Of a stretch of DNA of 61,519 nt, positions 2,129 through 25,968 are shown one piece after another. Under the pieces are notes generated by a model. That model was not told the origin of the DNA and ran no database searches. It was given only the letters and a program-made list of their open reading frames with translations. Numbering within the stretch: position 1 is the first letter of the stretch; each line of letters starts with the position of its first letter. The stretch is from a virus. The DNA lies in the IMG/VR virus record IMGVR_UViG_3300032213_001563, positions 1 through 61,519 of that record, one strand, 5' to 3'. A program made the position numbers and the translations under genes.

Positions 2129-3736
2129 ATGGAAGCACCAAATGTAAAAGCAATCAATGCAGACAAAGCAACCCGCGAAGAAATGCGGGAGTGGATCAGT
2201 GAATCAGCCCGTGCCCTGACTCGCGCCATCCACGGGACGCCGTCGCTCTCCGGGCTGCGGGAAGTTATGAAACTCATAGGGCACAATAGCCTCAGCGAGG
2301 TCGTCGCTACGGGAACCATGGAGACGCTCAGGAAAGCCGTGGTCAGCCTCATGGAGCAAGCCGTCAAGCACGGCGTCCCCCTAGTAGGGGAGGGCGTCGA
2401 GCCATCTCTGCCCACGACTCCGCTTTTCACAGCGGATGAGATGGAAGAACTCAAAGCGAGGGTTACGGTGTTTGACCCCCTAGAAAAAGTTAGCGCAGAC
2501 ACCGAAGATGACGCCTCGCGCCTTGCTTCGGAGGCTACGGATCTAGCGCGCCGTGCCGCCGCTGCCGCTGCCGCCGCCGCCAAGGCCGCGGCTATGCCAC
2601 GCCCTGCCGCTGGTATGGCAGCCATTGACAAGGAGCGCATCGACAACGTGGAGCGTCTCGCCAACTCTACGGCGGCGTCCCTCCGCGATGAGTCTGCCAA
2701 GCTACGCGCCATGGAGGATAAGCTCGCCCCGCTCGCTGCTGTGCTCGATGCTATCACCGCGTCATCCGCCGCGTCAGCCCCGGCCCTGCCACCCGCTGCC
2801 GTTGCTGCCGTCAAGGCTGCTGTCACGGGGGATCGTCTCCTTAGCGAGGTGCTGCCGTTCTTCACTCCTGGGCTACCTCAGGGTAATCAGATTCCGTGCG
2901 TCGCTTCGCCGCCCTCCTTCGGCAAGACGTTCATGTCTGACGAGATTAGCCGCATCTATGACGGGTCATTCTTCCATCCGTTCAAGGACAGTCTTGACGA
3001 GATTGACTCGCTGGTTGGCACGCTCATGCCCCGCAGTGATGGCACGTTTGCTGTCATTGACGGGCCGCTTGTCAGCGCCGCTCGCCTTGCCAGCACTGGC
3101 GTCAATGTTCTCTTCGTTGGTGATGAGATCTTCAACGCCAGCAAGAAAACCCTGGAGTGGATGCAGTCCTTCCTATCGCCACGTCTCGTGCCCTACCTCG
3201 GAGCGGATGGCGTCGAAACCCTGCGCCGTTGCTTTGTCATCCAGACCAAGCACAGCATGGAGGATGGCACGTTTGAGGTTATCAAAGCGCCGGAAGAGAA
3301 CCTGCACTTCCTGTTCCTTGGCAACCTGCGCACCAACCCACCCGAGGCACTGATGTCACGCTGTCGCCTCATGCGCTTCGACTATGATCCTGCCTGGGCT
3401 GCTGATACAGCGTATGAGCGTCTCAATGGCTACAGTGGTGGCTTGTTCTCCGGCCCTGCTACTAAAGAATGGTCCCTCGCTTGGGCCAAGGCTATGACCG
3501 CCAGCCGTGAGGCATACTCACGCATGGAAGTCAGCCGCCCGCTATGCTTCCGCTTCCTGATCGGTGCTGTCACCCATGTATCCCGCCAGCCCGGCGCGAA
3601 TCTGGGTATGCTCACCGACTACGTAGCCAAGTGGTCTCCGCATCAGATCGCGGTGCAGAATGCTGCCACGCAAGACACTGATCCAACCAGTCGTGAGGCG
3701 GTGGGCAAGATCATCAAGGCTGCTTTCGCCAAGTAA
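2129..3736 (+). CDS. AAA+ ATPase, MoxR/CobS-like
   Basis: This 535-aa protein has an alanine-rich helical N-terminal half, including a long Ala run near residues 143-155, and a C-terminal AAA+ module. The Walker A-like loop is PPSFGKTF (about 261-268), which lacks the usual first glycine. Walker B is VLFVGDE (327-333), the sensor-1 asparagine is in LFLGN (about N399), and an arginine-finger candidate is in SRCRLMRFDY (R411). MoxR/CobS-type ATPases work with VWA-domain partners as remodelling chaperones. The next two genes encode a zincin-like protein and a VWA protein, so the three probably act together. The ATG at 2129 follows an A/C-rich leader. The substrate is unknown. Confidence 0.75.
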   Translation: MEAPNVKAINADKATREEMREWISESARALTRAIHGTPSLSGLREVMKLIGHNSLSEVVATGTMETLRKAVVSLMEQAVKHGVPLVGEGVEPSLPTTPLFTADEMEELKARVTVFDPLEKVSADTEDDASRLASEATDLARRAAAAAAAAAKAAAMPRPAAGMAAIDKERIDNVERLANSTAASLRDESAKLRAMEDKLAPLAAVLDAITASSAASAPALPPAAVAAVKAAVTGDRLLSEVLPFFTPGLPQGNQIPCVASPPSFGKTFMSDEISRIYDGSFFHPFKDSLDEIDSLVGTLMPRSDGTFAVIDGPLVSAARLASTGVNVLFVGDEIFNASKKTLEWMQSFLSPRLVPYLGADGVETLRRCFVIQTKHSMEDGTFEVIKAPEENLHFLFLGNLRTNPPEALMSRCRLMRFDYDPAWAADTAYERLNGYSGGLFSGPATKEWSLAWAKAMTASREAYSRMEVSRPLCFRFLIGAVTHVSRQPGANLGMLTDYVAKWSPHQIAVQNAATQDTDPTSREAVGKIIKAAFAK

Positions 3737-3749
3737 GTAACAATGAGGG

Positions 3750-3770
3750 CTTAGAACCATTGGTTCTAAG
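3750..3770 (+). repeat. CTTAGAACC palindrome 7
   Basis: Same sequence as copy 1, between the AAA+ gene and the metallopeptidase-like gene. It ends 37 nt before the ATG at 3808. Confidence 0.9.
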
Positions 3771-3807
3771 CCCCGCAACCCAGCAACCCTCCGACCCTAC
3801 ACCCATT

Positions 3808-4899
3808 ATGTCACCATCACCAGCACCACCCGCAACAACTCCTGTGCAGATGCGAGAATGGCGTCTCGCCTACAACTCATCCAAGCGCCGTCAAACCGTG
3901 AAGCCTGACGGCTCCGTCCGCCAGCGTGCGGGTAGCCTAGCCTACCTGTATAACAAGGCTCGCGAGGCCATCAGGATCAGGCTGATCGACACGGAGCTAC
4001 CATACAAAACTGCCAACTGGCAGTGGGATGGTAAGTCTCACGTCATCAACGTGCATCGCGATGTTCCGAGTGTGTTCTTCTCCTCCGAGGGAACCAATAC
4101 CTCACCTCGTCGCATCGGTCTAGCCAAGGCTGTCGTCGCCCATGAGGTATGTCACGGGCTGTACACCTCGCGGAGTCCCGATGCAGGCGATGATTGCGCC
4201 AGGGTGGGCATCCCCTTCCGCCTCCTCAACCTCATGGAGGATTGCCGCATCGAGCACGCTTATGTGACTCAGCGGGGCAAGGATCACAAGTTCAACTGGA
4301 AGATCTTTGACGACTTCATGCCCAAGACCGGCGACACGATCAAGTCTCCATCGGACTGGCTCTTTACCATGAAGCGGCGTGAGCCTGTGCTATTCAAACA
4401 CCCATCGAGTGTCATGGCTCCGTATAAATGGGGCGGCGCAGCTATGGTGATGATGCCAACGGTGAGCTACATACATCCGCTCAAGGAATACGAGGGGCTC
4501 CTCCTTCCAACCGTCGGCGTCTTTGAAAAGTTCTACGCTATTATTGTAGCGGCTAAGTCTACTGAGGAGCTCGTGCCCATTGCGGCCTACTGGAAGGATA
4601 CGTTTGGTGCGGAGTCCGCGTCAGACCTTCCGCCTATCCTAGTCAGGACTGTCCCGTCTTCCTTCGGCGACAAGGAAGATCCTATGGAGAGCGGCGGGTC
4701 TAGCGGTGCCTCTGAGGCGATTCGCACCCCTGACCACAAGCCGGTCGACTCATTGACGGGTGGCCCCCTTGCTACCGGTCGCTCTGCAATCTACGAGGAC
4801 CGGGTGGTGCACTCGCAAGCTGGTGATGTGCTAGCCCGTCCGACCCTTCGAGGCCTCATCCCCCTGGCAAAGTATCTCCAAAACTCACAATACGCATAA
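3808..4899 (+). CDS. CobT/VWA-peptidase-like protein with HExxH motif
   Basis: This 363-aa protein contains VVAHEVCHGLYTS (HEVCH at 112-116), followed by LLNLMEDCRIEH (about 139-150). A zinc-type HExxH plus a downstream 'LLNxxEDxRIE' block is the pattern of the metallopeptidase-like part of CobT and related VWA proteins. Here that part stands alone; its VWA partner is the next gene, 4 nt downstream. In family terms it would work with the AAA+ protein upstream. Whether it has peptidase activity is unknown. The frame extends up to 3760 inside palindrome 7; the ATG at 3808 has the typical leader. Confidence 0.7.
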   Translation: MSPSPAPPATTPVQMREWRLAYNSSKRRQTVKPDGSVRQRAGSLAYLYNKAREAIRIRLIDTELPYKTANWQWDGKSHVINVHRDVPSVFFSSEGTNTSPRRIGLAKAVVAHEVCHGLYTSRSPDAGDDCARVGIPFRLLNLMEDCRIEHAYVTQRGKDHKFNWKIFDDFMPKTGDTIKSPSDWLFTMKRREPVLFKHPSSVMAPYKWGGAAMVMMPTVSYIHPLKEYEGLLLPTVGVFEKFYAIIVAAKSTEELVPIAAYWKDTFGAESASDLPPILVRTVPSSFGDKEDPMESGGSSGASEAIRTPDHKPVDSLTGGPLATGRSAIYEDRVVHSQAGDVLARPTLRGLIPLAKYLQNSQYA

Positions 4900-5694: not shown

Positions 5695-6219
5695 ATGAAA
5701 ACCATCGAAAAATTCTGCCATATCCACCACGCCTGCCCCGAGGGTAGGGAGTGGGCCATAGCCAACTGCTCTAACATGCAGGAGGCGTGGGACAAAGCCC
5801 CCGACCCCTCATGGGTTCTCTGGATCGCCACCCGTCAAGGCGTTTTGACCGACCGCGAACTCCGTCTATTTGCGGTCTGGTGCGCTCGACAGGTGCAGCA
5901 CCTACTGACCGATCCGCGTTCGGTTAATGCTATCGACGTAGCGGAACGCTATGCTAACGGCGAGGCTACCGACGAGGATCTAGCCGCAGCCAGGGACGCA
6001 GCCAGGGCCGTAGCCTACGACGCATCCTACGCCGCAGCATGGCCCGCACCCTACGCCGCAGCCGCAGCCAGGGGCGCAGCCTGGGCCGCAGCCAGGGGCG
6101 CAGCCTGGGCCGCAGGCAGGGCCGCAGCCTGGGCCGCATCCTACGCCGCACCCTACGCCGTAGCCACAGCCACCCAAGCCCAATGGCTACGTGAGATCAC
6201 CAAACCCAAATTCGACTAA
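5695..6219 (+). CDS. Putative immunity-like protein with Ala/Trp repeats
   Basis: This is a 174-aa protein. The N-terminal part (residues 1-90) has the pattern CPEGREWAIANC, EAWDKAPDPSWVLWIA and RLFAVWCARQV, which resembles a widespread bacterial family often labelled 'putative immunity protein'. The C-terminal half is low complexity: AARGAAWAA-type units repeated about every nine residues, with tandem GCAGCCAGGGGC-like repeats in the DNA. Family members commonly end in such Ala-rich helical repeats. What it protects against, if anything, is unknown; superinfection exclusion or toxin neutralisation are possibilities. Confidence 0.55.
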   Translation: MKTIEKFCHIHHACPEGREWAIANCSNMQEAWDKAPDPSWVLWIATRQGVLTDRELRLFAVWCARQVQHLLTDPRSVNAIDVAERYANGEATDEDLAAARDAARAVAYDASYAAAWPAPYAAAAARGAAWAAARGAAWAAGRAAAWAASYAAPYAVATATQAQWLREITKPKFD

Positions 6220-6223
6220 ACCT

Positions 6224-6523
6224 ATGGAGCCACCAAAACATTTGAGGTCCGCATCAGTGAAACAGATGCCCGCTGATCGTGCTAAGATCACAACCATTGA
6301 CAAGTCAAACCCCTCATTCCCTGCTGTCTGCATCGTCTGGACCGACGCCAAGATGCAGCCTGACGACTTCAACCTATCCGAGCTCGGTGATGTTGAAGCA
6401 ATCCAGTCCGACTTGCTTGCCTGCCCACCTCGCGGATGGGTTATGCTTCGCGGCGAGTGCCGTCGAAAGCTAGGCAGCTTCGTCAAGCTTCTACCCAAAA
6501 GACTCCGCCCTAAACGCCTATGA
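6224..6523 (+). CDS. Hypothetical protein, 99 aa
   Basis: This is a soluble protein with a basic C-terminus (ECRRKLGSFVKLLPKRLRPK) and a short hydrophobic strand (PAVCIVW). I recognise no family. The frame also offers 6191, but that overlaps the previous gene by 29 nt; the ATG at 6224 follows its stop by 4 nt and has the usual CCTATG context. The stop overlaps the next start (ATGA), suggesting coupled translation. Confidence 0.5.
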   Translation: MEPPKHLRSASVKQMPADRAKITTIDKSNPSFPAVCIVWTDAKMQPDDFNLSELGDVEAIQSDLLACPPRGWVMLRGECRRKLGSFVKLLPKRLRPKRL

Positions 6524-7461: not shown

Positions 7462-8325
7462 ATGAAAACGAAACTACATTCCTATCACTTCAACCTCAAG
7501 CATATCCCCGATCACCAAGCATACATGCTGCTCAAGGAGCGCATGAAGCGCGAGTCCCGTCGAGGTGACCGCATCAAGCTTGTGGACGCCGCACCCCGAG
7601 ACAGTCAATCATTTGATTTCCTGAAGCTCCTTACCCAGGACGATAATCTCACCACTTACGAGGTCGAGCTAGACATCAAGCATGTGTTCAATAATCAATG
7701 GAACTCCGCAGATACGTTGGATCACTCAGGCTACCGTGTCTTCGATTGGGTTGAGTATTACAACCCCCGTAATGTCAGTTTAATCCGGGGCCATTGGCTG
7801 GAGGTGACGGATGAGATGGTAGCTACCCGCGAGAATACCCTTAAGTGCGGCTACTGCGGCGCTCAATACGGCCCGCATCACCAAGCCAGTGAGCACCCTG
7901 ACTTCTGCATGAAGTGCCTCGATAGCCCTTACCTCAAGGAGGAAGACCTTGGGCTGTTGCGCTTATATCCAGTCAGCGCGGATCACAGACCCCAATCCAT
8001 CGAGTTGTCTAGCGAAGACAGAGCATGGCTGCTACCCCGCTACACTGAAGCCCAGATGAAGGGCAACAAAGACAGGGCAGAGTCCCGTGCTCTCAAGCAG
8101 CGCGAGGCTCTTGAGGAAAAGCGCGCCCTTAATGATATGGAGTATGCTGGATTCGACCAGCTACTGAACGCCGGAATTGACACCGGGAATATCATCTTCC
8201 ACAGTCACATTCCGGTATTCAAATTCGGGTGGCGCTCCGCCCTGTCGCCTTCGGTTGCAGAAGCTATGAAGGCGAAGGTCGAAGAGATCGGATTCAAGTT
8301 CCCGACAGAGTTCGCCATCGCCTAA
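7462..8325 (+). CDS. Hypothetical protein with zinc-binding cysteine pairs
   Basis: This is a 287-aa soluble protein. Two CxxC pairs, KCGYCGAQYG and FCMKCLDS, about 30 residues apart, suggest a structural zinc site near the middle. A charged helical stretch follows (NKDRAESRALKQREALEEKR), then a C-terminal domain ending in FPTEFAIA. I do not recognise a named family. It is the largest protein in the 6-12 kb cluster and is bounded downstream by palindrome 9. Confidence 0.65.
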   Translation: MKTKLHSYHFNLKHIPDHQAYMLLKERMKRESRRGDRIKLVDAAPRDSQSFDFLKLLTQDDNLTTYEVELDIKHVFNNQWNSADTLDHSGYRVFDWVEYYNPRNVSLIRGHWLEVTDEMVATRENTLKCGYCGAQYGPHHQASEHPDFCMKCLDSPYLKEEDLGLLRLYPVSADHRPQSIELSSEDRAWLLPRYTEAQMKGNKDRAESRALKQREALEEKRALNDMEYAGFDQLLNAGIDTGNIIFHSHIPVFKFGWRSALSPSVAEAMKAKVEEIGFKFPTEFAIA

Positions 8326-10978: not shown

Positions 10979-11062
10979 AAAATCATTTGTGCTACCAAGA
11001 TTGTAGTATAAAACCACCGACCTAGACAGATGCGTCTAGTAACCCGTAAACCCATCACCACT

Positions 11063-11335
11063 ATGCCGATAATCGAAATACCATCCGACGACATCATCCT
11101 TGACAAGGAACTCCGCCGCGACATTGACGCCATCACCCAACGCCTCAAGTCTGCCAAGCCAAGCCGCGAACGCAGCATCACCATTACCAAGTTACAAGAG
11201 GCGGTGATGTGGCTGGGTATGGATCTCAAGCGCATCAACGAAGAGAATCCAGGAGCCTCCCCAAATCCATATCCGAACTCCAAAGATCCGAGCAATACGA
11301 AGATCGAGCCAACCGCTGACGGGCTGAAGCTCTGA
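11063..11335 (+). CDS. Acb2/Tad1-hairpin-like protein, candidate anti-CBASS/Thoeris sponge
   Basis: This 90-aa protein has SRERSITITKLQEAVMWLG (a helical hairpin with the 'Lx-EAxMW' core), then MDLKRINEENPG and a tail NPYPNSKDP...KIEPTADGLKL. This resembles the Acb2/Tad1 hairpin family, phage proteins that sequester cyclic nucleotide or cyclic ADP-ribose signals of CBASS and Thoeris. The match is from memory of the family pattern, so it is a candidate only. The ATG at 11063 has the usual ACCACTATG context; an in-frame ATG at 11030 also exists. It sits directly before the tRNA-like element. Confidence 0.55.
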   Translation: MPIIEIPSDDIILDKELRRDIDAITQRLKSAKPSRERSITITKLQEAVMWLGMDLKRINEENPGASPNPYPNSKDPSNTKIEPTADGLKL

Positions 11336-11343
11336 ACCAATTC

Positions 11344-11450
11344 GAGCGCGTGCTGGAATCAGGTAAACAGTGCTGTTAGCTCGGCGGGATAGCGTTTTAA
11401 TGGCTAACAAAGTAACTCCCTTGCAGGTTCGAGTCCTGCCGCGCTCACCA
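11344..11450 (+). tRNA. Unusual 107-nt tRNA-Leu-like element with encoded CCA
   Basis: The ends are fully tRNA-like: acceptor GAGCGCG pairs perfectly with CGCGCTC, discriminator A and CCA are encoded, and the T arm is GCAGG-TTCGAGT-CCTGC. The D arm (TG-CTG-GAATCAGGTAAA-CAG) has the class II, leucine style. The middle does not fit: it is about 20 nt too long. One fold gives a 7-bp stem (TGTTAGC with GCTAACA) around a 22-nt loop and a 13-nt variable arm. Another gives an anticodon arm TAGCG-TTTTAAT-GGCTA, which would read the ochre codon. I cannot assign an anticodon. It may be an expanded, decayed or processed tRNA. Confidence 0.5.
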
Positions 11451-11476
11451 AAACAACCCCCCCCCCAGCAACCCCG

Positions 11477-11647
11477 ATGCCCGACTCCCCTTATACCGAG
11501 CCTGAGAAAAACGCGATGAATCACATTGCCAAGATGTGCTCCTCGTGTCATAAAGCCGCCGCTTCCTACCTTGCGCTAATGCGCGCCGTCAAACTTCGCC
11601 TCGAACTCGAAGGCTATACACCACCAACAAAACCCAAAACCAAGTAA
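11477..11647 (+). CDS. Small CxxC protein, 56 aa
   Basis: This encodes 56 residues: MPDSPYTEPEKNAMNHIAKM, then CSSCHKAAAS and a helix (YLALMRAVKLRLELEGY), ending in Pro/Lys. The CSSC motif could bind metal or form a disulfide. The leader follows a run of ten C residues (11457-11466). It ends 3 nt before the next ATG, consistent with an operon. No family is recognised. Confidence 0.45.
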   Translation: MPDSPYTEPEKNAMNHIAKMCSSCHKAAASYLALMRAVKLRLELEGYTPPTKPKTK

Positions 11648-13687: not shown

Positions 13688-14278
13688 TCAGGGGTTACGT
13701 TCTTTCGTCATCCAGCACCATTCGGGATAAACAACGTCGTCTTCCTCATAAGACTGCTTCGGCAACTGGACCTTGAGGTTTAGACGGCAACCACATTGCG
13801 AGCAGTTATGCAACCTAGCCGCAGCATCAGGGACACGGGCGGCGGGGAGGATGCCATCCATGGCAACAACCTCGCCCAGGCGCGCATCGCATGAAGCGCA
13901 CCCACCAGCCCTGACATTGCGTGGGCAGGTAGCGCAGATCTCAGCGCGTTTATTGACGAGTTCCATGGGGGCGAGGTTCGCCCCGCCGAGAATCCAGTTC
14001 TTTGCTGTAGTGAAGAAGCGCCCGAGGGTTTCAAAAGTAACACCGACCACAGCGGTCGATGTTGAACTATCACAGTAAGGAGGCTTCAGCCCCATCTGTT
14101 CGCAGATAGAGTGCTCGATCTGTTCGTTCGTCATAGGCTCCCTACCATTTAAGGAGAGGAACCCACGGACGGCGGTGATGAGTTTGCTGGCGGAGAAATT
14201 GGCGATGTAGCTTCCCGTCACCGGGTCGCGCCAGCGCCATTTTCCATTCGGGGTTGAGGCATTGTGGTTGATCTTCAT
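13688..14278 (-). CDS. Cysteine-rich zinc-finger-like virion-region protein
   Basis: This 196-aa protein has an N-terminal helical part (LITAVRGFLSLNGREPMTNE), then a cysteine cluster RAEICATCPRNVRAGGCASC (about 112-131) and a second pair NCSQCGCRL (about 158-166), giving at least two possible zinc sites. The start overlaps the stop of the giant protein gene by 4 nt. Being coupled to internal virion protein genes suggests a structural or assembly role; a specific function is not visible. Confidence 0.6.
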   Translation of the reverse strand: MKINHNASTPNGKWRWRDPVTGSYIANFSASKLITAVRGFLSLNGREPMTNEQIEHSICEQMGLKPPYCDSSTSTAVVGVTFETLGRFFTTAKNWILGGANLAPMELVNKRAEICATCPRNVRAGGCASCDARLGEVVAMDGILPAARVPDAAARLHNCSQCGCRLNLKVQLPKQSYEEDDVVYPEWCWMTKERNP

Positions 14279-17200
14279 TTTTCTTCCCAGTGTGGTGCGA
14301 TTTCTCGGGCGTAGATTCTCTCTTGGATGACGCTCTGCACGTACTCTTTCGCGTCCTCGGAGATTTTCTTTACTTCTTTCTGCGCGGCTTCGCGGCCTTC
14401 ATTGCCCTCAGCAGCTAGATCTGTCAGGGCTTTGATGGTGTCTGGAGGCAGCATCATTGTGACCTGCTCACCGAATAAGCGTAGCGCATCAATCTCGACC
14501 TCGGGAGGGAAGCTTGACAGAAGTCCGCCTTCCTCGTCGATCTCGTCAGACCCTTTCACGTAAGTCTTGAACCTCATATCGCTTCCCTTCGGAGGCGACA
14601 GGAACAAACCGGCACTGACCAGCGGCGTCATTACAGGATCGTATCCATCATCAGCTGTCATTGGCAGGATACGTTTGGTCATAGGGGCGTACCAGAAGTT
14701 CGTCACCGGACGACCCATACTATTGACCATGTTCGGACGGCCCAGGCTTTCGCCGTAGAACTCGTTTGCGGGCAGCGTGCTGATGAGCGCGGTAGCCAGA
14801 CCACGAGCGTCAAGCGAGTGACGGGTATCTGGCAGTGCATATTCCCCGCCATCCAACAGCCCGCTGGCCATACTTGCTACGTTACCTACAAGACGTGGGT
14901 TGGTTGCACCAGCGACAAAGTTGACCCCCATATCTACCAAGTTGCGGGCGGAGGTCGCCTCTGCTTGTGGGTTGTCGCTGAGTATCTCGCCAACTTGCGC
15001 GAGTCCCTGGAGGGAGTTCTTCACCGTGACAGCTTTGATGAACGCCACCGAAGCGTTTATGGAACTTTCAAGCGCACGGATTTTTGTGGGGTCTTTCTGA
15101 CTACTGACCATCCTATCATCCGTGAGCGCGGCGAGCGCCCCGAAGAATAGGTTGAAGCCAGGAATGTCTTTCCACGATATGTAAGCATCGCCCATCTTGA
15201 GCGTATAGGGAGCCCACCTTGGTTGGCGGTAGCGAAGCTGACGATTGCGCTCAGAGTCTGGGTAGCCCTTACCGTAAACCATGAGCCACGGAACGCGCCC
15301 CTCCATCTCGTCTTCAAGACCTGCTTTATAGAAAGCCCCGAGCGTCAACTGTGTTGCCAAAGCAAAGAATCCCTGAGCAAGGAGCTTGTATTGATTGATA
15401 GACCCAGACTCAACTCGTGCCCTACGGTAGTTATTATCTTCACTGAAGAACCAGCTTGACGGGCTTGCATTGAATGCGCGCCCAAAGGATACAAGACCCA
15501 GCGGGAAGCTCAATGCCAGCGAGAAGTCCATCAAGTTACCCATTGATCGGGTGAAGGATACGACCACTGAAGACAGCCCTCCTGTCTTGCGTTCAACCCA
15601 TCCGAGGATTCCGTCAAAAAGCCATCCAGATAGGCCCGTCGGATTATTGCTCAGATTGGCAAACCGAGCAGACTCCCGACTCGCGTCCATGAAGTTCTCT
15701 TTTGCTGTCGCGTCAAGGTCGATGGCCAGTTCATTGTAGAGACGTTCGCGGCGCTGCTCAAGTAGCTGCGCTCTGCGGGACTTCATCGCTAGATCAGGAC
15801 GTGGGCTGTTGCGGAACTGCTCACGTTCAGACGCTAGAATCATCTCGATCTCACGGGCTGCTGCCTCGTCAGGGGTAAAGGACTCGCGCATGATCTTCTT
15901 CATCGTCGCTTGGTCTGCGCCGTTCATTGTCAAGACATAGTTAATGGCCAGACGTTGACGAGCGATAGAGGATGGGACCGATACGGTCGCATCTATGACC
16001 GCCCCGATTCTCCCAAGCAATTTGTAGAAGTTCTTTTTCGCAGTCATCAGCGACTTGATGAACGGCAGGTCGATCACAGGGATGTCGCGCTCCAAGATTA
16101 GCAAACTCTCACTTGCTTCGGAGGCAAAGCGGGAACGCCCGGTTCGTGCGGCCCTGTTCATTTCGTTCCAAACCTCAGGGCGAGCCACCGGATCGAGGAC
16201 CCATGTAGCGGCTTTCATCATAGTGAGCAGATTGCTAGCTGCGAGGCGAGGGTCTTTTGCTTTGACGGCGTAGGCAACGCTGTTGAACCCGAGGTCCATA
16301 AGCGTCTGCACCATACCGTAACCAGCGTTGACCTCGGCGGTGCCGAATCCGCTTAGCACTCCAGACTTCCACATTGCCACCGGGATAGCGGCTAAGTATG
16401 TGGACCTGAGCGTGCCGCTCTTAACGAGTGACTTGAATCCATACGCGGCGATGAGCGACTTGTGGAGTTCACTGACAACCCGAGCATTCAATTCCTGGAC
16501 GGCGTCATTGCGCTGCACGGAACCAAGCGGCATCGACATGATGCGGTTTGCTTCACGGTCTAGCTCGTCAGCTATGACGGGATCATACGATGGTAGCCCG
16601 AACTCCACAGCCATAGCGTTGTAGAACTCTTCTTGACGGAGCCCACCGAGGCGGGCGAGGCGCAAGAATTTCTCACTGCGGGAGAAACGTTTCGTATTAT
16701 CACGCTCAGCGAAGTCTGACCGGCTCCTTGCGTAGCTAACCAGCGTGCGTTGGATGCGGCGGTTAAGCTCAGCTTCGTAGGCGGTTTTGAAAGCCTCCGC
16801 CACCTTGCGGGATTGCTCCTCGTTGAGCCCTGCGGTGCTGGAGATCATCCCCGCTAGGTTTGCTACGGTTGCATTTCTTTCTGTGATGGACAGGTAGATT
16901 TGCTCACGCATGTCGATCGACTTGCGCACAATGTTGGCAGCCATGCTTAGCGGAACGAGGTCAAACTCCATGGCCTCGATAGCTGCTTTGGCAGCTTCGT
17001 ATTGTTTCAGGGCTTCGGGGGATGCGTCCTTCGGAGCGGCGAGGCTGGCGAGAAGCTTTGCCTTGCTCTTGTTGAGGGCATCTTCCACGCTCGGAGCGAA
17101 CTCAGTAATGGATGCTGCCAACTCACGGATGGAGCGTTTCAGCGCCTCCTTCTTGGCTGCTTCCTGTTGTGCGGGCGTTAGCTCTGGGGACGGCGGCTCG

Positions 17201-20200
17201 ATCTCTGCAAGGGCTTCGTTGATGCGGATCGCGACGAGGCGCTTCACCTCGTCAGAGTATTCCTCGAAGAAGGATTTCTCCGAAATGCCAGCGGCTTCGG
17301 CAGCCTTCTTGACTTGCCCACGGATCTTGCCGTCAACCATACCGACCATCTTATCAGAGACCCACTCAGCCATCTGCTCAGGGATAGAGATGTCTGGCTC
17401 ACCAGCAGCGAGACGATCCAGCGAGTCCAGTAGGTCAGCCAGAAGTTTGACCTCAGCAGGGCTACCGCCAGCGGCTTTGGTCACTGCTTCGATGATCTTC
17501 TTGAGGAGCGGAGATTTCTTGACGGCATCTTCAGCGGAAGCGTCAGCGTCCTTCTTCAGCTCAGGGAATAAGTCTTTGGCATCTTTAGGCAACTTCTCAC
17601 GGGAACCCTTATCGACCGCGTCTTTGTAAGTCGCCCCCGCTGTTTTAGGGTTGAACAGTTCCTGGGCGAGCTTGGCTGCTGCGAGCATTCGACCGGAGGT
17701 AGAGGCAACGTCTTGAAGGCTGCGCCCTTGAAGCTTGGCTTGATCTTCAAGATCCTGCAATAGGACAAGACCTCCAGGAGTCGGAGTCTTTGCCATCGCA
17801 GTCGTCAAGTCTTGGACCCGGCGGTTGAGTGCTTGGACAATAACAACACGAGCGAGGAATCGCTGCACGTCCGTCAGGTCATACACGCCGCCCGCAACAC
17901 TGGCGTCGAGTGCGCTGAAGTCCGACGCTGAGGAGAGACTAGCTAGCTTGGCACCGATTTGGGCTTCGACTTGTTTAAGGTCAATCTCTTTGGTAGAGCT
18001 GAAGTAGGTGCTCTCCTTCAGGTATTCTGCAACCTTCGTTGGCATTGCTGGCAGTGAGCCTCTCAGAGCTTGCGTCACTTTGAGCACGCCGGTCACTGTG
18101 CCTGGGATGGTGCGAACCGGGGCTAGGCTGTATTTAGTCTCGGCCTCGGGCAGCGAACTCATCATCTCCATGTCAGACTTAGCAACCTGAGCGGCCAGCT
18201 CATTTATGCCGTCGCCGATGACCGGAGGATTCGTCGTGTCAGGATTGCGGCTCACGTTGACCAGCACCGATGCTTCTTCTTGAGCGGCTTTCTGTGCGAA
18301 CTCCGTGCTCTCGGCTGGAGGGAATTGACCGTAAGCGGCGGGCATGACGCCCGGCTGGATCACAACCTGCGGGTTCTCCGCAATGTTGAAGACACGGTCA
18401 AGGCTTTTCTCCAAAGCAGAATCACGTGGCAGATCGGGGAACACCGCTTGATAGAGTTTGCTCAGGATGCGCTGGATGAAGTTAGGGCGTCCTTCGGCAG
18501 CGGCTACGTCAGCACCGACGGAGGGTGGCAGGGTTGCCAGCCATGAACTGAATCGAGTATCCGCCAGGACACCGGCGATGAACTCTTCTGTATCAGCCAA
18601 CTGGTAAGCGAACTCGTCACTTTCAGGAGTTGTCTTGGCGAACTCAGCAGCAGATTTGCGGAGCTTGTCAAGCTCGTCGAATGCTTGCTTGACCGGCTCG
18701 GACACCTTGCCCAGCAGGTAGTTGTTGTACGCGATCGAGGTTACTGCGTGCGAGCTTTCGTGGATCAGGGTTTCAATGATCCATGCTTTCGTCAGCGTTG
18801 ATTGCATCGTGCCTTTGAACTCTGGCTTCACGAAGCTCAGGTTCAGAGAGATGGTGTGCTCATTCGGATCGTAAGCGCCAGAAGGACGGACGATCTGGTT
18901 TCCGTTGACGGCTTGCTTTGCCCCGACGCAGAGCGACAGCCCGCGTAGCGTGGCAACATCCGCATGGGCGGCTAGGTATTCAGCAACCTTGCGGCGAGCT
19001 GGGTCCACGCCTTCCATATTAGCGATAGCGGAAAGAGCGGCCCGCACAGAGGCTGGGTCTCCGTCAACCAATCCGAGTTCTTCCAAGACAAACTTGGTCG
19101 CGTCTTCTTCAGACAGCGGAGTAGTCTCAGGAGTCTTGCCGTCGAAGGCTTCACGAGCGCCGCTACGCATTGCTTGACGCAGCATCTCGGCCTCAGCCAT
19201 GTCATCCCTGGCCTGCTTAGCAGACTTGCCAGTCTTGCGGGCGTAGATGTCAGGGATCTCAGAGTTATTCGGGCGGGCAGGCAGCGCCACAGACAAGCTG
19301 TTCTTGGAACCAACGCCCATCGCGTCGAGGAATGACTCGATATTGAGGATTGCTTTTGTGGCGTTGATGTCGCCGTAAGCTCTCCACCATGTCAAGAATT
19401 GACGGGCGGAAGCTCTCAGGAAGGCGATCGTTCTAGCAAGCGTGCCTGAGGATGCAGACATCATTTCCAGAATGTCTTCTGTCGTATGTCCATTTTCAGA
19501 CACTTGACGCATCATGCGGTAGTAGTCAGCACCAAGCTGCACCATGCCAGCAGCGCCGTCCGGTGTGGAGCTTGACGTGCCGCGTGCAAAGTAAGCCAAG
19601 TAGTTTGGGTCTTCTGGGGTGAGGCCATAGACCTGTCGGATAATCCGATGCCGGGTTTCAGGGCTGAGAGACTCGGCGGTGTCAATGAGTTCGCCGTCGC
19701 TAAAGCGTTGTAGGATCGCAAGGGTTGACGCCTCACGATCAAGCAGCGCGTTGAGGTATGTGGTGATGCCCTGCGCGTCAAGACCACGAGAGCGTAGCGA
19801 CCCGACAAGCTCGGTCAGAGCTTCCTCGTTCACATAGACTGCTGTGTCAGACCTATCACGGCTGACAAAGAGAGGCTGCGAAGGAATGCCAGGACCACCA
19901 GCAACCATCTTGATCTCACGTCCAGTCTTGACTTTAGCGGCACGGAGGAACGGAGCGAAGTCAAGAGGCTTCTTGACACCGTCTTCCGCGACCTCAACTA
20001 CGGATTCAGCAAGCGGGGTTGCTTCTTCAACCGGGACGTCGGACTCAGGAAGCAAGCCGATGTTAGTCTCAGCGATGCCTTCAGGGTCCGCAGCGGCAGA
20101 GTCGTCGCCAAGCAAGCGAGCCTCTACGGTATTGGTCGAAGCTGGGGAGTTAGCTAGATCGACGGCTTCACGAACCTTGGCAACGTGGCTGACTTCCTTG

Positions 20201-23200
20201 ACCCCAGCGGTGCGAGATTTAGGGAATGCAATCTCTGGGTTGTTCAAGACAGCCTTCAGCAAATCAAGGAAACGCTTCCCTTGGTTAGGGCTGTTGACCA
20301 TCAGACTACCAGCGGCCATAAGACCAGCGTGCAAGCTAGATCCGCGCTTAGTAGGCTTGCCAGTAAGCAGCTCACCAATGGTGCTCCAGAAACGGCTCCA
20401 CAAAGAGACCAGCTTCGGAACCTTGATGCCAGTCTTATGCGTCCGCAACATCTCGCCAAACTCGGGAGATGTCAGCATTGCTTGGACGAATGAAGGGGTG
20501 TCCTTGAGGGCGTCGGTGAATCGAGCCTCCATCCCGCCAGGGCGTGTGGATCGCTCCACGAGGACAGCTTCTTGACGAAGCTCGTCAAGAGTTGCCAAAG
20601 CTTTGCTCTGGGTTGCATTGAGGAGCTTGCCAGGAGTAGTCAGCTCTGAGGTAGCGTGGGTCAAAAGCCCACGTAGCAGGGCTTCAGGGCCGCGAGGAGT
20701 TCCGTCAAGAGTTGGCGTCATAGCCGCCACGTTGAGGACCAACTGAGAGTTACTGACGAAGACGTCGGAGCTGAGAGCGGGGTCTTCAATAACTTGCACT
20801 CCTTCGAGGCCATCTAGGAGACCTGGATTCTCGTTAAAGATCCGAGCAAGCGCCTTGAAGTGTGGGCTGCCGCTGTTCTCTTTGTTGACCAACTGACGAA
20901 TCGCCGCCGCAACCGTCGCCATATCGGACTCTTGGTTGAGACCGATCGCGGAAAGCTGGCCACGATAGCCAGCTTGATCTGCTGTGGTGTTGGAGGGCGT
21001 TGCAGTAAGTTGGACCATGGCAAGCCCTGCGTTGACCGCCTTGGTCGGAGATGGAGAAGCCATCCGAGTTTGCGTAGCCTTTGCTTTAGCCTCCGCCGAT
21101 TTCACCGCGTCATCGACTTTCTTTTTAGCCGCCTCCCTTACAGCAGGAGGAACTGTCTGAGTTATCGGAGAAGCTGGCTTCAGGCTCTTTAGCTGTGTCC
21201 TTGCGTCGGCGAGTGACTCACTAGCCTCTTTAATGGCCATGTTGATGCGACTCAACCGTGAGTTTAGCTCGTTGGCCTGCTTCTGGATTTCGGGGGTTAC
21301 GGGGGTTTCGCGGGTAGGTCTGATTTCGGCAAGCCTATCCTTGGCTATAGCTGCCTCGTTTTCTAGGCGAGAAATCTCTTGTTCGAGGCGGGCCACCGTG
21401 CCCGCAGCCGCCATAACAATCGCTTCCTGTGTCACCTGAGCTTCTAGCTCTCTGGCTTTAGCAACTTCTGTAGAAGTTGCTGTTCTGCCGCGCACGCGAA
21501 CTTGAGGCGTGATGTCACTGGTTAGCCGCGCCAGTACAGCAAAGACTTCTTTGATTGAGCCCCGTGCAGAGTCAGAATTAAGGCCCAGGTTTTCTGACGC
21601 CTGCTTAATGATTCTTGCGGCAGCACTGGAGTCGCTAACCTTGACGACGGCCGCAATATAAGCCAAGTCCATTGTCTTGAGCTGCTCGTCAGTAAATCTG
21701 CGAGCGCCAACACGGGTGGTCAATTTGCTGAGGGCATCACGACCAAGCTTTGCAAAGTCGAGGAAGAAGCGAGCCACATTGGGCATCGCGCTGATTCGCT
21801 CAACAAGGGTTTTGTCTTTGAGCAAGTTAGTTAGGCCGCGTCGCTCGTCTTTGTTAAGGGCGGGGCCGTGTTCATAAATTAGCTCACCGTCAACCCCCAC
21901 CTTGAACTTGAGGTTACGCTGGAAGTCAGCCAAAGCTTGACGAGCTTGCAGTGGCTTACCTGTGAGGGTGAGAAGACTTACTTCATCCGGCGTCCCGTCG
22001 TTCAACTCTTGGAGGGCGGCACCTAAAGCGGCAACCTCCTCTTCGGTAAGAGGAGTGTCTCCGGCGGCTTGTTGGTCGATGCTCATATCGACCTTGCCGA
22101 AGTTTTGCTGAATGACGTCTTTACCCAATTCAGCAGATTCACGATCTGCCGTGCTGAGAGGATCATCGAGCGATCCAGTGATAATAGTCCGGCGAGTCTG
22201 CTCGGCACCCGTAAAGTCTTTGAGCACGTCCCTAACTGTGATCTGGAGCGGAATCAGCTTGTTGGAGACTTCCTCAGGAGAAAGCTCAGGGTTATCCTTG
22301 AGTAACTGGCGGACCTTTACAGTGGCTGCATTTACCACCGCGCCTTCGATAAGCGTTACCCTGTCTTTAAGAGCTTCTGGGTAAAGCCCGGTGTTAAGGA
22401 ATCGGCCAATTATGGTGACGTATGCAGGGTCGCCCTGACGAGAGATACCAAGGTACTCTTGGAGCAGGACATCCTCGCCAGGAATGGACTCCGGCGCGTG
22501 CTTCTCTACGTACTCAGGCGTGCCAATGAACGGAAGCTGCGGGTTCGCCGTCTTAGACATAGCCATGATCTGGTCGATAAGCTCAGCTCGATCGGCTTTA
22601 AACTCGGCGATAGCCTCGATGGATAGCTCCCGACCGCCAGACACACCAGCGGCGATAATGTTTGACGTCGTGCGTAGCTCTTCACGTAGCTGGTCAATAG
22701 TCTTGCCTGTCTTGGCAGCTATCTTTTCCCCTGTGCGTAGAAGGCGATCTAAGCGAGACTGGCGTTTGGGGCTATTCTTATAGAGCGTAGTCCATTCCCC
22801 GGCCTTGGTAATTTTTGCATCACCGCGTGTCTTATCATAAGCGCCCGTGACGACGCCATTGGCATCGACCTCAATCCCCGGAGCAATCTTAGATCTCGAC
22901 AAAGTAGGTGGAACGGTAACTTCCCAGCCCGCATTGATCTGCTTAGCCGTGATGATCGGATCGTTGGTGAAGAACCCGACTCGTTTGCCGTTGACATCTT
23001 TGTAGGGAACCGGCCCTCCCTGGCTCTTAGTGTACTCTGCGGATGGAGAGAGTGGCTTCATCTGCGAGCCATAAGTTGACCCGGTGAGCTCTCCATCAGG
23101 ACTACCTTCCTCTGGTGGATACGTCTCTTTCCAAGCACGGTTAAGATCCTCCATGATCTCTTTGAGCGCAGGGTCATTATTCGACACGCCTCTCGTGGTC

Positions 23201-25968
23201 TGCGCCTTAATGAAGGAACTGATCTCGGTGCTGCTAGGCATGACGCCGTCTCTGAGCGCGTCCTCTTTGACGAGGGCTGCTGCTTTCAACTGATCGGGAG
23301 TCAGCGTTTTGAGCGCGCTGGCTTTACCCTGACGAGCCCCTGATGGAGTTCTCGCTTGAGTTTGTCCTGCTCCTTGCTGTTTAGCGGGCTGCCCTTGGAC
23401 AGGAGGAACGCTACTTGTTGGCGGCTCTTTTGCTTGGGTGTCATCGGATTCGGGGGTTCGGGGTTTCGGGGGTGCTGGCTTCGCCATCGCTAGTGGAGCT
23501 TCAGGCAAAGGCGCTGGAGCTACCGTGGTGCCCACGCCTCCCGGCGTTGGCTGTGGCCCTTCGGTAGCGTCCGTCGGTTCCGCTGGCGTAGGCACAGCGG
23601 GAGATTCTTGGGTAGGCGTAATGGCGGGGGCTTCGGCTTCTGGAGTAGCAGCGGGAGCGGGGGCCGTAGCGACAGGCTTCGGCGCAGGCGCGGCAGTGGA
23701 GACTGGCGCAGGAACCTCTGGAGTAGCAATGGGAGTAGGGGCTGGTGCCTCAGCTTCTGGAGTAGCAACAGGAGCAGGAGCCGGTGTAGGAGCAGGAGTA
23801 GCAACAGGAGCGGGAGTAGCGACGGGAGCTTCGCCCGCTTCAGCAAAAGGATCGGCAGCTTCAATGACAGGAGCGGATACTTCGGGCTCGGCCACCGGAA
23901 CCATTGCGTCAGGGTTCGCAGCGATCGCGGCGCGTAGCCCGTCAAGACGTTGCTGCATTTCCTGTAGTTCAACACCCTCACCAAAACTACTTGTTCTAGG
24001 AGTAGCATTGATCTTAGCTTCGAGCTCGCGAGCAACCACGGTTGCTTGCTGATAGGCTGGCTGTTGACCCAGGGCGGCTTCGGCGGCGCGCTGTGCTTCG
24101 GCGGCTTTCCTATCTAGATCTTCCTGGGTGATCGTGCTGATCTGTGCGTTAGCCTGTTCGCGAAGAACCGCTGCCGTGCTCGGAGCCCCAGCGGCTTCTA
24201 GTGAGTTGGCGGCGTCAAGTTGTTGTTGGACGACGGGGTTCTTCTTCGCCTCTTGACGGGCGGTGTACGCGTCCATCAATGAGTATGGCAATCTCATGCC
24301 TGCTCCTAGCAGTCCGCCAGCGGCGGCGGATTTCATCGTCTCAGTGACAATCTCTTCGACCGGCTTGCTTGGGTCGATAGCTACCTTGTCAACGACTTGG
24401 TTGATGAGCTCGTCAAGACCCTCTTCTGGGATTTCAGACAACGCTTCTTTGCCCAGGGATCTGCTGAAGAAAACAAACAGTCCGTCCTTAGCAACCTGAG
24501 CAGCTCTGCTGGCTTGAGGAGCCGCAAGGATTTCACCACCTGTTGCGCCAAATAGAGCGGTGAGGACCGCTGTGGTAGCGCCAGAGATAAGACCACGAGC
24601 TCTAGCCCCATCACGCGCTCTACGACGAGCTGCTTCAACAGCTTCTGGGGTCTGTTTATCGGCGGGGATCATGGAGAGTTCGTCTTTCAGGAACTCGTCA
24701 AAGTATTGATTAAACGCACCGCCTGCGCTTTGAAGACCGCCTGCAGCCGAAGCGGCGGCAACACCACCGGCTTTGGAGATAGCTGCTTGACGCGCCGTGA
24801 TCTTCGCGGCTGCTTCACCAGCAGCTTTCAAAGTCGCAGCTTCGGCAAGCGCCCCGGCACCGATACGGCCAGCCGTCGCAGCGGCAGCCGTGCGGCCAGC
24901 CGCACCAGCGGCAAGGCGTCCAGCCGCGACTAACCCACGACCAGCCGCACCAGCGGGGGCAGTCGCAAGAGAAGTGAACACCATAGAAGCCGCATCGGCT
25001 GCCAGAGTCGCTCCTCCGACTGCTTTAATGCCTGCGGCTAGATCTTGGCTCATCCTCCCAACGGTCTCGGCATTAGCATCGGTTTCTGCATCTTCCCAAC
25101 CAAGGAAGCGTTTAGCCCCGTAGTAAGCGCCGACCACCTCGCTAGCTCCGAGCAGCCCGCCTAGCTTTAGCTGAGTCCCAAGGTTAGAATACCACGACCC
25201 ATTCTCTTTTTGCCAACGCTCCATGATGTCAGCGTCGGTTAGGTTAGGCTCTCCTTCGCGGGCGTCTTTTTCAAACGCACGGAATTTGTCCATGCCCCCT
25301 AACCACCTGTCTTCAAAAGTCTGATCGACGGCGTCAATCTGAGACCTAAGAGTAGTGCCAACATCCTCACGGAGCCTGCGGCCCTTAACCAGAGTATCAA
25401 TCTTTTGCTCCTCGGTTAGGTTAGACTTAATGACGGACTCACGAAAGCGTGCTTTGTCAAGAGCTAGGGATGGGCTCGCGTAGAAGTTACCGTTCGCCAC
25501 ATGGAACTCGCGATCGTCATTGGCTACTTCTTCGACCGCTTTGAGGTCATCCTCATCAGCGACGGACACGGTCTCGTTGAGCTTTTCTAGTTCATCCCGC
25601 TCTTCAGGAGCCAGAAGCGCAACACCAGTACCGCCAAACTTACCCGCTTTTGATTCAAGCTCCTTCTTACGAGAAGCCAAGATAAGGCGATCCTGAGCTG
25701 CTTTGGGCTTTTCAGCGGCGGCTTCTTCGCCTGCCATGGCCACCGGAGAATCTCCGCGTAGCTCTGCAGCTTTGGTTTTGGAGAACTTCTGGAACCAGTC
25801 CCAGCTATCGTTGTCAAGGTTGTCGGTATCTTCGAGCGCCGCAGAACGATAGTCAGCCTGCCAATTATTGAACACGTCCTGACGCTGGGCTTTGTCAAGC
25901 GTTTGGAAAGCTTCGTTGGACTCAATCGTGCTCCAGTTAGGGAAATCAGAAAAAGATTTGGCGGGCAT
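14275..25968 (-). CDS. Giant 3897-aa multidomain virion protein
   Basis: This single open frame fills 19% of the window. Visible parts are an Ala-rich, partly hydrophobic segment (about 305-420), a Pro/Ala/Thr low-complexity linker (about 697-810), long coiled-coil helices throughout, a zincin-like motif LIHESSHAV (HESSH at 2403-2407) and another hydrophobic stretch near 3525-3555. It follows the tail genes, where podoviruses keep internal (ejection) proteins, and resembles the 'large polyvalent' proteins carried into cells by some phages. I saw no RNA polymerase motifs such as those of N4. Roles could include DNA ejection, envelope digestion or early host takeover. Confidence 0.75.
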   Translation of the reverse strand: MPAKSFSDFPNWSTIESNEAFQTLDKAQRQDVFNNWQADYRSAALEDTDNLDNDSWDWFQKFSKTKAAELRGDSPVAMAGEEAAAEKPKAAQDRLILASRKKELESKAGKFGGTGVALLAPEERDELEKLNETVSVADEDDLKAVEEVANDDREFHVANGNFYASPSLALDKARFRESVIKSNLTEEQKIDTLVKGRRLREDVGTTLRSQIDAVDQTFEDRWLGGMDKFRAFEKDAREGEPNLTDADIMERWQKENGSWYSNLGTQLKLGGLLGASEVVGAYYGAKRFLGWEDAETDANAETVGRMSQDLAAGIKAVGGATLAADAASMVFTSLATAPAGAAGRGLVAAGRLAAGAAGRTAAAATAGRIGAGALAEAATLKAAGEAAAKITARQAAISKAGGVAAASAAGGLQSAGGAFNQYFDEFLKDELSMIPADKQTPEAVEAARRRARDGARARGLISGATTAVLTALFGATGGEILAAPQASRAAQVAKDGLFVFFSRSLGKEALSEIPEEGLDELINQVVDKVAIDPSKPVEEIVTETMKSAAAGGLLGAGMRLPYSLMDAYTARQEAKKNPVVQQQLDAANSLEAAGAPSTAAVLREQANAQISTITQEDLDRKAAEAQRAAEAALGQQPAYQQATVVARELEAKINATPRTSSFGEGVELQEMQQRLDGLRAAIAANPDAMVPVAEPEVSAPVIEAADPFAEAGEAPVATPAPVATPAPTPAPAPVATPEAEAPAPTPIATPEVPAPVSTAAPAPKPVATAPAPAATPEAEAPAITPTQESPAVPTPAEPTDATEGPQPTPGGVGTTVAPAPLPEAPLAMAKPAPPKPRTPESDDTQAKEPPTSSVPPVQGQPAKQQGAGQTQARTPSGARQGKASALKTLTPDQLKAAALVKEDALRDGVMPSSTEISSFIKAQTTRGVSNNDPALKEIMEDLNRAWKETYPPEEGSPDGELTGSTYGSQMKPLSPSAEYTKSQGGPVPYKDVNGKRVGFFTNDPIITAKQINAGWEVTVPPTLSRSKIAPGIEVDANGVVTGAYDKTRGDAKITKAGEWTTLYKNSPKRQSRLDRLLRTGEKIAAKTGKTIDQLREELRTTSNIIAAGVSGGRELSIEAIAEFKADRAELIDQIMAMSKTANPQLPFIGTPEYVEKHAPESIPGEDVLLQEYLGISRQGDPAYVTIIGRFLNTGLYPEALKDRVTLIEGAVVNAATVKVRQLLKDNPELSPEEVSNKLIPLQITVRDVLKDFTGAEQTRRTIITGSLDDPLSTADRESAELGKDVIQQNFGKVDMSIDQQAAGDTPLTEEEVAALGAALQELNDGTPDEVSLLTLTGKPLQARQALADFQRNLKFKVGVDGELIYEHGPALNKDERRGLTNLLKDKTLVERISAMPNVARFFLDFAKLGRDALSKLTTRVGARRFTDEQLKTMDLAYIAAVVKVSDSSAAARIIKQASENLGLNSDSARGSIKEVFAVLARLTSDITPQVRVRGRTATSTEVAKARELEAQVTQEAIVMAAAGTVARLEQEISRLENEAAIAKDRLAEIRPTRETPVTPEIQKQANELNSRLSRINMAIKEASESLADARTQLKSLKPASPITQTVPPAVREAAKKKVDDAVKSAEAKAKATQTRMASPSPTKAVNAGLAMVQLTATPSNTTADQAGYRGQLSAIGLNQESDMATVAAAIRQLVNKENSGSPHFKALARIFNENPGLLDGLEGVQVIEDPALSSDVFVSNSQLVLNVAAMTPTLDGTPRGPEALLRGLLTHATSELTTPGKLLNATQSKALATLDELRQEAVLVERSTRPGGMEARFTDALKDTPSFVQAMLTSPEFGEMLRTHKTGIKVPKLVSLWSRFWSTIGELLTGKPTKRGSSLHAGLMAAGSLMVNSPNQGKRFLDLLKAVLNNPEIAFPKSRTAGVKEVSHVAKVREAVDLANSPASTNTVEARLLGDDSAAADPEGIAETNIGLLPESDVPVEEATPLAESVVEVAEDGVKKPLDFAPFLRAAKVKTGREIKMVAGGPGIPSQPLFVSRDRSDTAVYVNEEALTELVGSLRSRGLDAQGITTYLNALLDREASTLAILQRFSDGELIDTAESLSPETRHRIIRQVYGLTPEDPNYLAYFARGTSSSTPDGAAGMVQLGADYYRMMRQVSENGHTTEDILEMMSASSGTLARTIAFLRASARQFLTWWRAYGDINATKAILNIESFLDAMGVGSKNSLSVALPARPNNSEIPDIYARKTGKSAKQARDDMAEAEMLRQAMRSGAREAFDGKTPETTPLSEEDATKFVLEELGLVDGDPASVRAALSAIANMEGVDPARRKVAEYLAAHADVATLRGLSLCVGAKQAVNGNQIVRPSGAYDPNEHTISLNLSFVKPEFKGTMQSTLTKAWIIETLIHESSHAVTSIAYNNYLLGKVSEPVKQAFDELDKLRKSAAEFAKTTPESDEFAYQLADTEEFIAGVLADTRFSSWLATLPPSVGADVAAAEGRPNFIQRILSKLYQAVFPDLPRDSALEKSLDRVFNIAENPQVVIQPGVMPAAYGQFPPAESTEFAQKAAQEEASVLVNVSRNPDTTNPPVIGDGINELAAQVAKSDMEMMSSLPEAETKYSLAPVRTIPGTVTGVLKVTQALRGSLPAMPTKVAEYLKESTYFSSTKEIDLKQVEAQIGAKLASLSSASDFSALDASVAGGVYDLTDVQRFLARVVIVQALNRRVQDLTTAMAKTPTPGGLVLLQDLEDQAKLQGRSLQDVASTSGRMLAAAKLAQELFNPKTAGATYKDAVDKGSREKLPKDAKDLFPELKKDADASAEDAVKKSPLLKKIIEAVTKAAGGSPAEVKLLADLLDSLDRLAAGEPDISIPEQMAEWVSDKMVGMVDGKIRGQVKKAAEAAGISEKSFFEEYSDEVKRLVAIRINEALAEIEPPSPELTPAQQEAAKKEALKRSIRELAASITEFAPSVEDALNKSKAKLLASLAAPKDASPEALKQYEAAKAAIEAMEFDLVPLSMAANIVRKSIDMREQIYLSITERNATVANLAGMISSTAGLNEEQSRKVAEAFKTAYEAELNRRIQRTLVSYARSRSDFAERDNTKRFSRSEKFLRLARLGGLRQEEFYNAMAVEFGLPSYDPVIADELDREANRIMSMPLGSVQRNDAVQELNARVVSELHKSLIAAYGFKSLVKSGTLRSTYLAAIPVAMWKSGVLSGFGTAEVNAGYGMVQTLMDLGFNSVAYAVKAKDPRLAASNLLTMMKAATWVLDPVARPEVWNEMNRAARTGRSRFASEASESLLILERDIPVIDLPFIKSLMTAKKNFYKLLGRIGAVIDATVSVPSSIARQRLAINYVLTMNGADQATMKKIMRESFTPDEAAAREIEMILASEREQFRNSPRPDLAMKSRRAQLLEQRRERLYNELAIDLDATAKENFMDASRESARFANLSNNPTGLSGWLFDGILGWVERKTGGLSSVVVSFTRSMGNLMDFSLALSFPLGLVSFGRAFNASPSSWFFSEDNNYRRARVESGSINQYKLLAQGFFALATQLTLGAFYKAGLEDEMEGRVPWLMVYGKGYPDSERNRQLRYRQPRWAPYTLKMGDAYISWKDIPGFNLFFGALAALTDDRMVSSQKDPTKIRALESSINASVAFIKAVTVKNSLQGLAQVGEILSDNPQAEATSARNLVDMGVNFVAGATNPRLVGNVASMASGLLDGGEYALPDTRHSLDARGLATALISTLPANEFYGESLGRPNMVNSMGRPVTNFWYAPMTKRILPMTADDGYDPVMTPLVSAGLFLSPPKGSDMRFKTYVKGSDEIDEEGGLLSSFPPEVEIDALRLFGEQVTMMLPPDTIKALTDLAAEGNEGREAAQKEVKKISEDAKEYVQSVIQERIYAREIAPHWEEK

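Follow-up and report, generated by a model that had tools for sequence, protein, structure and literature searches.

The sequence at positions 11344 to 11450 of this linear virus record, whose 61,519 bases are here called the window, raises the question of what an RNA with the ends of a tRNA and an overlong middle could be for. The parts of a tRNA-Leu were all found where the original prediction had placed them in this 107-nt plus-strand element. The acceptor stem is formed by GAGCGCG (11344-11350) and CGCGCTC (11440-11446) with 7/7 pairs and, as described below, covaries across a family. It is followed by TG and by the D arm CTG GAATCAGGTAAA CAG (11353-11370), which keeps a GG in its loop, unlike most members of that family. 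A 52-nt insert (11371-11422) replaces the anticodon arm and the variable region, and after it come the T arm GCAGG TTCGAGT CCTGC (11423-11439), the acceptor 3' strand, A73 (11447) and an encoded CCA (11448-11450). The predicted excess length of the middle was borne out: in L084, an ordinary phage tRNA-Leu, D and T arms are only 33 nt apart. Chance was excluded as the origin of the element: a scanner for a 7/7 acceptor, T arm and D stem found one site in the window and none on either strand of one Markov-resampled copy of 1.29 Mb. No second copy was found, and the window thus holds one only.

Both of the folds proposed earlier for the middle can be drawn. The first is a TGTTAGC:GCTAACA stem with a 22-nt loop, and the second is a weak arm with the loop TTTTAAT (11395-11401), in which four of five positions pair and one is G-G. 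We assigned TTTTAAT instead to the loop of a stem S1, formed by TGTTAGCT (11374-11381) and its partner GGCTAACA (11402-11409) through seven Watson-Crick pairs and one T-G pair. GGGA (11386-11389) within this loop is predicted to pair with TCCC (11417-11420), which ends 2 nt 5' of the T stem, as S2 of a pseudoknot. The combination of S1 and S2 gave a pseudoknot score of z -2.7 against 60 shuffles, while S2 by itself (z -0.31) and the minimum free energy of the element by itself (z -0.88) were ordinary. A suppressor tRNA in the window is not supported, the 5-bp anticodon stem, 7-nt loop and U33 not being in place and 4/5 pairs appearing only farther on. ARAGORN, which had been suggested as a check, did call a tRNA, but only over 11369-11446 as tRNA-Stop(tta), a span that ignores the 7/7 acceptor. 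The element had no Rfam match at the gathering score, and at a permissive threshold the best match was tRNA-Sec (18.3 bits, where the cut-off is 47).

The search for homologues started from the terminase relatives, whose 42 underlying records were searched with the window element. One of them (G016) gave a clear match to the 3' part (E 8e-7), and in two further records (E 0.06-0.08) the match was limited to 14 nt of the insert. G016 contains a 103-nt element with acceptor and T stem as in the window and a different middle, and directly 5' of it a second odd element with the acceptor GACTCAG. These elements led to three scans of viral_contigs. Scan (i), with GAGCGCGTG and its 3' partner at a spacing beyond the class II tRNA range, returned 19 loci. 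Scan (ii), with the 3' module alone, returned 39 loci, which by hand count comprised 33 complete elements, one cut by a contig end and five without an element, three of these being 3' ends of tRNA-Lys of the kind that integration leaves behind. An exact D arm GCGGAATGTAAAGACGC, which formed no part of that query, was present in 15 of the 39 loci (hand count). Scan (iii), with GCGGAATGTAAAGACGC alone, returned 35 loci and 36 matches; its pattern included neither acceptor nor T arm, and sites were accepted at at least 6/7 acceptor pairs and at least 4/5 T-stem pairs. Both ends were present in 32 matches (28 distinct), and the four others were L109, L116, one of two in L121, and L090, which is cut. 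The same D-arm pattern matched 84,980 prokaryote species genomes at four loci, none with a 3' end; these four are chance matches, and the family is phage-restricted.

In total, 45 members were extracted from 41 contigs with G+C contents of 30-61%. Removal of five near-copies or nested ones left a set of 40, and removal from it of inserts longer than 120 nt left a set of 38. Among the matches listed for named phages and plasmids, coverage of a typical element does not exceed 35%. A search for relatives via the protein of 7462-8325 gave none in viral_contigs and seven weak phage records otherwise. ARAGORN was silent at most members, with exceptions including L060 (tRNA-Stop) and L093 (tRNA-Ser). 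As tRNA finders miss or misname the members, a widespread phage RNA may have stayed unseen.

Other odd RNAs were seen in the same material. A second odd family, with acceptor GACTCAG, a 5-bp D arm, the T loop TGCAATT and differing inserts, occurs at L044 (1309-1422), L073, L089 (several places) and L098, phages that also have the first kind. L111 (78,750 bases) has a tRNA-like array among ordinary tRNAs on the reverse strand at about 2470-3830, mostly with acceptor AGTCCTG/CAGGACT and middles of about 19 to 94 nt, one insert having a second T-arm-like hairpin. L117, a large phage with many tRNAs, has two odd ones on the reverse strand at 2933 and 5677; one tRNA there is 103 nt long with an anticodon arm and a two-hairpin variable region, and another is 140 nt. 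L080, L083 and L088 carry what integration leaves of a host tRNA-Lys(UUU), its 3' portion, of which 28 nt in L083 and L088 are shared with the 3' end of the window element.

The original prediction had named unconserved paired ends as one of the signs against it; in the relatives these ends proved to be conserved. All 28 distinct members found through the D arm have 7/7 paired acceptors, with 16 acceptor sequences and two-sided changes at all seven pairs (19 distinct rows), and the covariation score was 0.484 compared to 0.131 for shuffles and at most 0.075 for slid partners. Acceptor pairing is kept under selection in this family. The same 28 have identical T stem pairs 2-5, and 23 of them have the T loop TTCAAAT; this constancy of the T stem and most of the loop while the acceptor varies suggests sequence-specific recognition of the elbow. 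N73 is A in 18, G in 4, T in 4 and C in 2 of the 28, and CCA is encoded in two. Base 48 is T in 40/40 members, which fits an A15-U48 pair as in tRNA, and base -1 is T in 34/45. The D loop of the main group is GAATGYAAAGA, from which the window differs with GAATCAGGTAAA, and a later GG in the D loop is present in only 5/40. The GYAA loop of most members is without G19, and their elbow may therefore differ from that of tRNA.

The relation of the window element to the family was assessed with a covariance model built from the D-arm-found rows, with the window and the near-identical L060 left out and no inserts modelled. The model matched the window at full length over 11344-11446 (32.1 bits, E 2.1e-7), while by another route it matched 11388-11446 only (15.9 bits, E 0.022). 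In L060 the match was shortened (22.5 bits); the tRNA-Ala adjoining the L060 element, an ordinary one, scored 18.5 bits (E 0.05). A model without inserts handles long inserts badly, and given these limits membership of the window element rests mainly on what it shares with the family in acceptor and T arm, on its insert and on the lack of an anticodon arm. The window element has the 7-bp acceptor directly on the T arm, the D arm after two bases, and an insert with no anticodon arm. Judged by its D arm it is, together with L060, an outlying member, and the element very probably belongs to a family of non-decoding tRNA-like RNAs. The family looks undescribed, no description having been found in the literature covered, a scope outside which preprints and most subscription papers lay.

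Inserts range from 32 to 223 nt across the family and whole elements from 86 to 277 nt. A canonical anticodon arm is in place in 1/40 members and occurs anywhere in the insert in 6/40, compared to 2.8 expected. What is kept is the upper half of a tRNA of the Leu type, and the anticodon arm is replaced by a hypervariable folded insert; the suggestion of a tRNA with an inserted segment was right in this sense. The best H-type pseudoknot of the inserts scored better than that of shuffles (mean z -1.06, n=38), a measure not independent of the folding z given below, and a good pseudoknot is missing from some inserts. The inserts are thus modelled as often able to form a pseudoknot. A terminal stem before the T arm is weak (mean z +0.44; p of at most 0.05 in 5/38); it ends exactly 2 nt 5' of the T stem in 12/37, with p 1.7e-4 for this one offset, picked post hoc. 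The window insert has a further copy only in L060, as found in the last viral scan, with three differences, all outside S1 and S2. An NTG before the CAGG of the T arm was considered as a start codon and rejected since its open frames were no longer than those of the two alternative frames (medians 15, 19 and 13.5 codons, n=40).

The elements are deduced from sequence comparison to move between phages as units. The 97% identity between L079 and L099 stops at the borders of the element, their flanks being unrelated, and the window has the element and little else in common with contig G043 (L060). Of the 39 element contigs searched for the terminase of the window, five have one that is 39-47% identical, five have weak or partial matches only and 29 gave no match, many of these contigs being fragments; Pfam terminase PF03354 was uninformative as a yardstick of phage kinship (0/39). 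A scan for odd elements in 23 contigs (1.29 Mb) found them in the window, G016, G052, G056, G059, G061, G078, G043, G063 and G070, and not in ten terminase relatives (G017, G023, G024, G025, G026, G030, G033, G035, G036 and G042) or in the scanned parts of G003. In the scanned parts of G002 and G005, the closest relatives, one normal tRNA-Met(CAT) each and no odd element were found, the tRNA lying upstream of the homologue of the gene at 11030-11335. The lineage of the window has therefore probably acquired its copy recently.

The window encodes a tailed-phage gene set, including helicase/exonuclease, DNA polymerase and a terminase (46781-48550). Elsewhere in it are a 3,897-aa reading frame without a Pfam match (14275-25968) and a repetitive coding stretch (about 5930-6230) with many self-shifted tblastx matches to relatives. 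Upstream of the element lies a plus-strand gene (11030-11335) with an Acb2_Tad1_hairpin domain (PF24729, 29.7 bits, cut-off 27), the product of which is likely an anti-CBASS/anti-Thoeris sponge. Proteins of the Acb2/Tad1 family are sponges for immune signal nucleotides and are known for binding these rather than tRNA. The domain was found in 5/51 records, namely the window, the contigs of L078 and L085, G002 and G005. It is thus present in three of the 41 element contigs among these records, and in the two besides the window it lies 3.9 and 7.5 kb away from the element. Its scarcity in element contigs and its presence in G002 and G005 make it a hint for the window and no rule for the family. 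No recurring partner or neighbour gene was found across the elements, the largest neighbour cluster (4 loci) resulting from an ORF that runs through the 3' module which the elements share.

The structure of the element is well supported, and what is said of its function is inferred. The reading we favour, at a little under an even chance, is that of a non-decoding mimic from an undescribed phage family that occupies a host protein which reads tRNAs. This is supported by the covarying acceptor, the constant T arm, T48, base -1, the missing anticodon arm, the restriction to phages and the exchange as a unit, as well as by the Acb2/Tad1-like gene adjoining the window element. The element would be transcribed together with that gene, both ends would be cut by host RNase P and 3' processing, and the RNA, after addition of a CCA tail, would accumulate. 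It could then tie up a host protein that recognises tRNAs by their acceptor and D/T elbow; a defence factor that attacks or senses tRNAs is the most plausible candidate. In the ribosome the RNA would not be able to decode. The insert could vary freely if folded and out of the way, or else would be tuned to each opponent. Points that weaken this reading are the want of a recurring partner gene, the rarity of Acb2/Tad1 in the family and its binding of nucleotides, the D loop without G19, and the unexplained need for an insert of up to 223 nt. The decoy mechanism as such is likewise rated at a little under an even chance. The general idea of a decoy in the original prediction is retained, while its version directed at anticodon nucleases is weakened by the near-universal absence of the anticodon arm noted above.

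The main rival to the decoy is a tRNA-shaped scaffold in which the arms serve processing and stability and an active insert (antisense, aptamer or guide) is swapped between phages. This is unlikely. In its favour, inserts are unrelated between phages while the arms are constant, L079 and L095 are 83% identical in the 5' flank and 5' module with different inserts, and dinucleotide shuffles fold less well than the inserts do (mean z -1.03 for the inserts, n=38). Against this, an antisense excess to the own contig was absent when phage contigs were compared, the longest match beating all 20 shuffles in only 2/45 inserts; one of these two is a T-arm-like repeat. Middles of only about 19 nt in L111 and L096 also count against this reading.

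That the element is RNA punctuation, a signal for RNase P and 3'-end cutting that separates the genes of a phage operon, is improbable. The window element does lie tightly between same-strand reading frames, 8 nt after the stop of the Acb2/Tad1-like gene and with CCA 26 nt before the start of a possible 56-aa gene (11477-11647, plus strand) that has no Pfam match. A C run at about 11457-11467 lies directly 3' of the element, ahead of this possible start codon, and a scan for sigma-70 promoters and terminators around the element gave nothing above shuffles. By crude ORF calling with a minimum of 80 aa, the nearest ORF on each side is co-directional with the element in 23/45 members, but 22/45 are without two such neighbours, eight of them without an ORF on one side. 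Acceptor and T arm would moreover be enough for such a signal, which leaves the conserved D arm, U48 and the folded insert unexplained.

A phage attachment site or a decaying tRNA pseudogene is very improbable. The last 28 nt of the window element are identical to the 3' terminus of the host tRNA-Lys at which another phage (L083/L088) integrates, and the phage of the window encodes a tyrosine integrase (PF00589, 48587-49459). This integrase is, however, 37 kb from the element, the full 5' part is present and not the 3' part alone, L060 retains the element without CCA, and the window has a single copy; the covarying acceptor would be expected for neither. Least probable of all is a decoding tRNA, either an ochre suppressor as originally proposed or a tRNA-Leu interrupted by a 15-20-nt intron: the ARAGORN call and the canonical GG of the window D loop favour it, but TAA ends 33/56 ORFs of at least 80 aa and as the commonest stop of the phage makes an ochre suppressor unlikely, the ochre arm contains the G-G pair, is displaced by a further 20 nt and is common only to L060, 39/40 members have no anticodon arm in place, and L093, L096 and L111 are too short for arm plus intron; that the window copy alone has an intron is improbable.

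If the element is a non-decoding mimic, it would serve directly as an RNA probe for those host factors that recognise tRNAs by elbow or tail. The family also makes the question of why phages carry odd tRNAs one that can be tested by deletion. A broader proposal, that these are phage-wide counter-defence RNAs in which anticodon-less mimics trap tRNA-attacking effectors, carry an exchangeable pseudoknot tuned to opponents and are mobile as a unit, is speculative and we consider it rather unlikely. Defences that cleave tRNA are currently being described, for example Cas12a3 (PMC12851939).

The family resembles bacterial class II tRNA-Leu in its 7-bp acceptor, U8, 3-bp D stem with GAA in the loop, T arm and A73. 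It differs in having a hypervariable insert in place of the anticodon arm and an encoded CCA in few members, and most members depart at four loop bases from the tRNA-Leu D arm GCGGAATTGGTAGACGC. With tmRNA it has in common a tRNA-like end domain without an anticodon arm and pseudoknots in the middle, whereas its members are shorter than the about 350 nt of tmRNA and have a D stem. The window element is also without the G3-U70 pair, which is the identity pair of alanine, and RF00023 (tmRNA) had no match in the window at the gathering score. Separate tmRNA genes were seen in two of the phages, at L064 3202-3532 (RF00023, 117.6 bits), apart from the mimic element, and at L074 4400-4693 (ARAGORN). 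The bacterial Y RNA-like YrlA is a non-decoding RNA that mimics tRNA, as the phage family would be; YrlA and Y RNA families had no Rfam match at the gathering score in the window and 16 loci. The tRNA-microRNA RNAs of the gammaherpesvirus MuHV-4 are likewise viral tRNA-like RNAs with extra structured RNA. Their cargo follows the tRNA part, whereas the insert of the phage family replaces the anticodon domain, and its carriers are phages rather than an animal virus. An HDV-like ribozyme gave no Rfam match in the window and 16 loci, pseudoknot scoring having covered the simple type only. The theta ribozymes of gut phages (PMC10879173) are small pseudoknotted RNAs whose cleavage site adjoins intact tRNAs; they resemble the present family in being small pseudoknotted RNAs tied to phage tRNAs and differ in that they cut and stand beside tRNAs that are intact.
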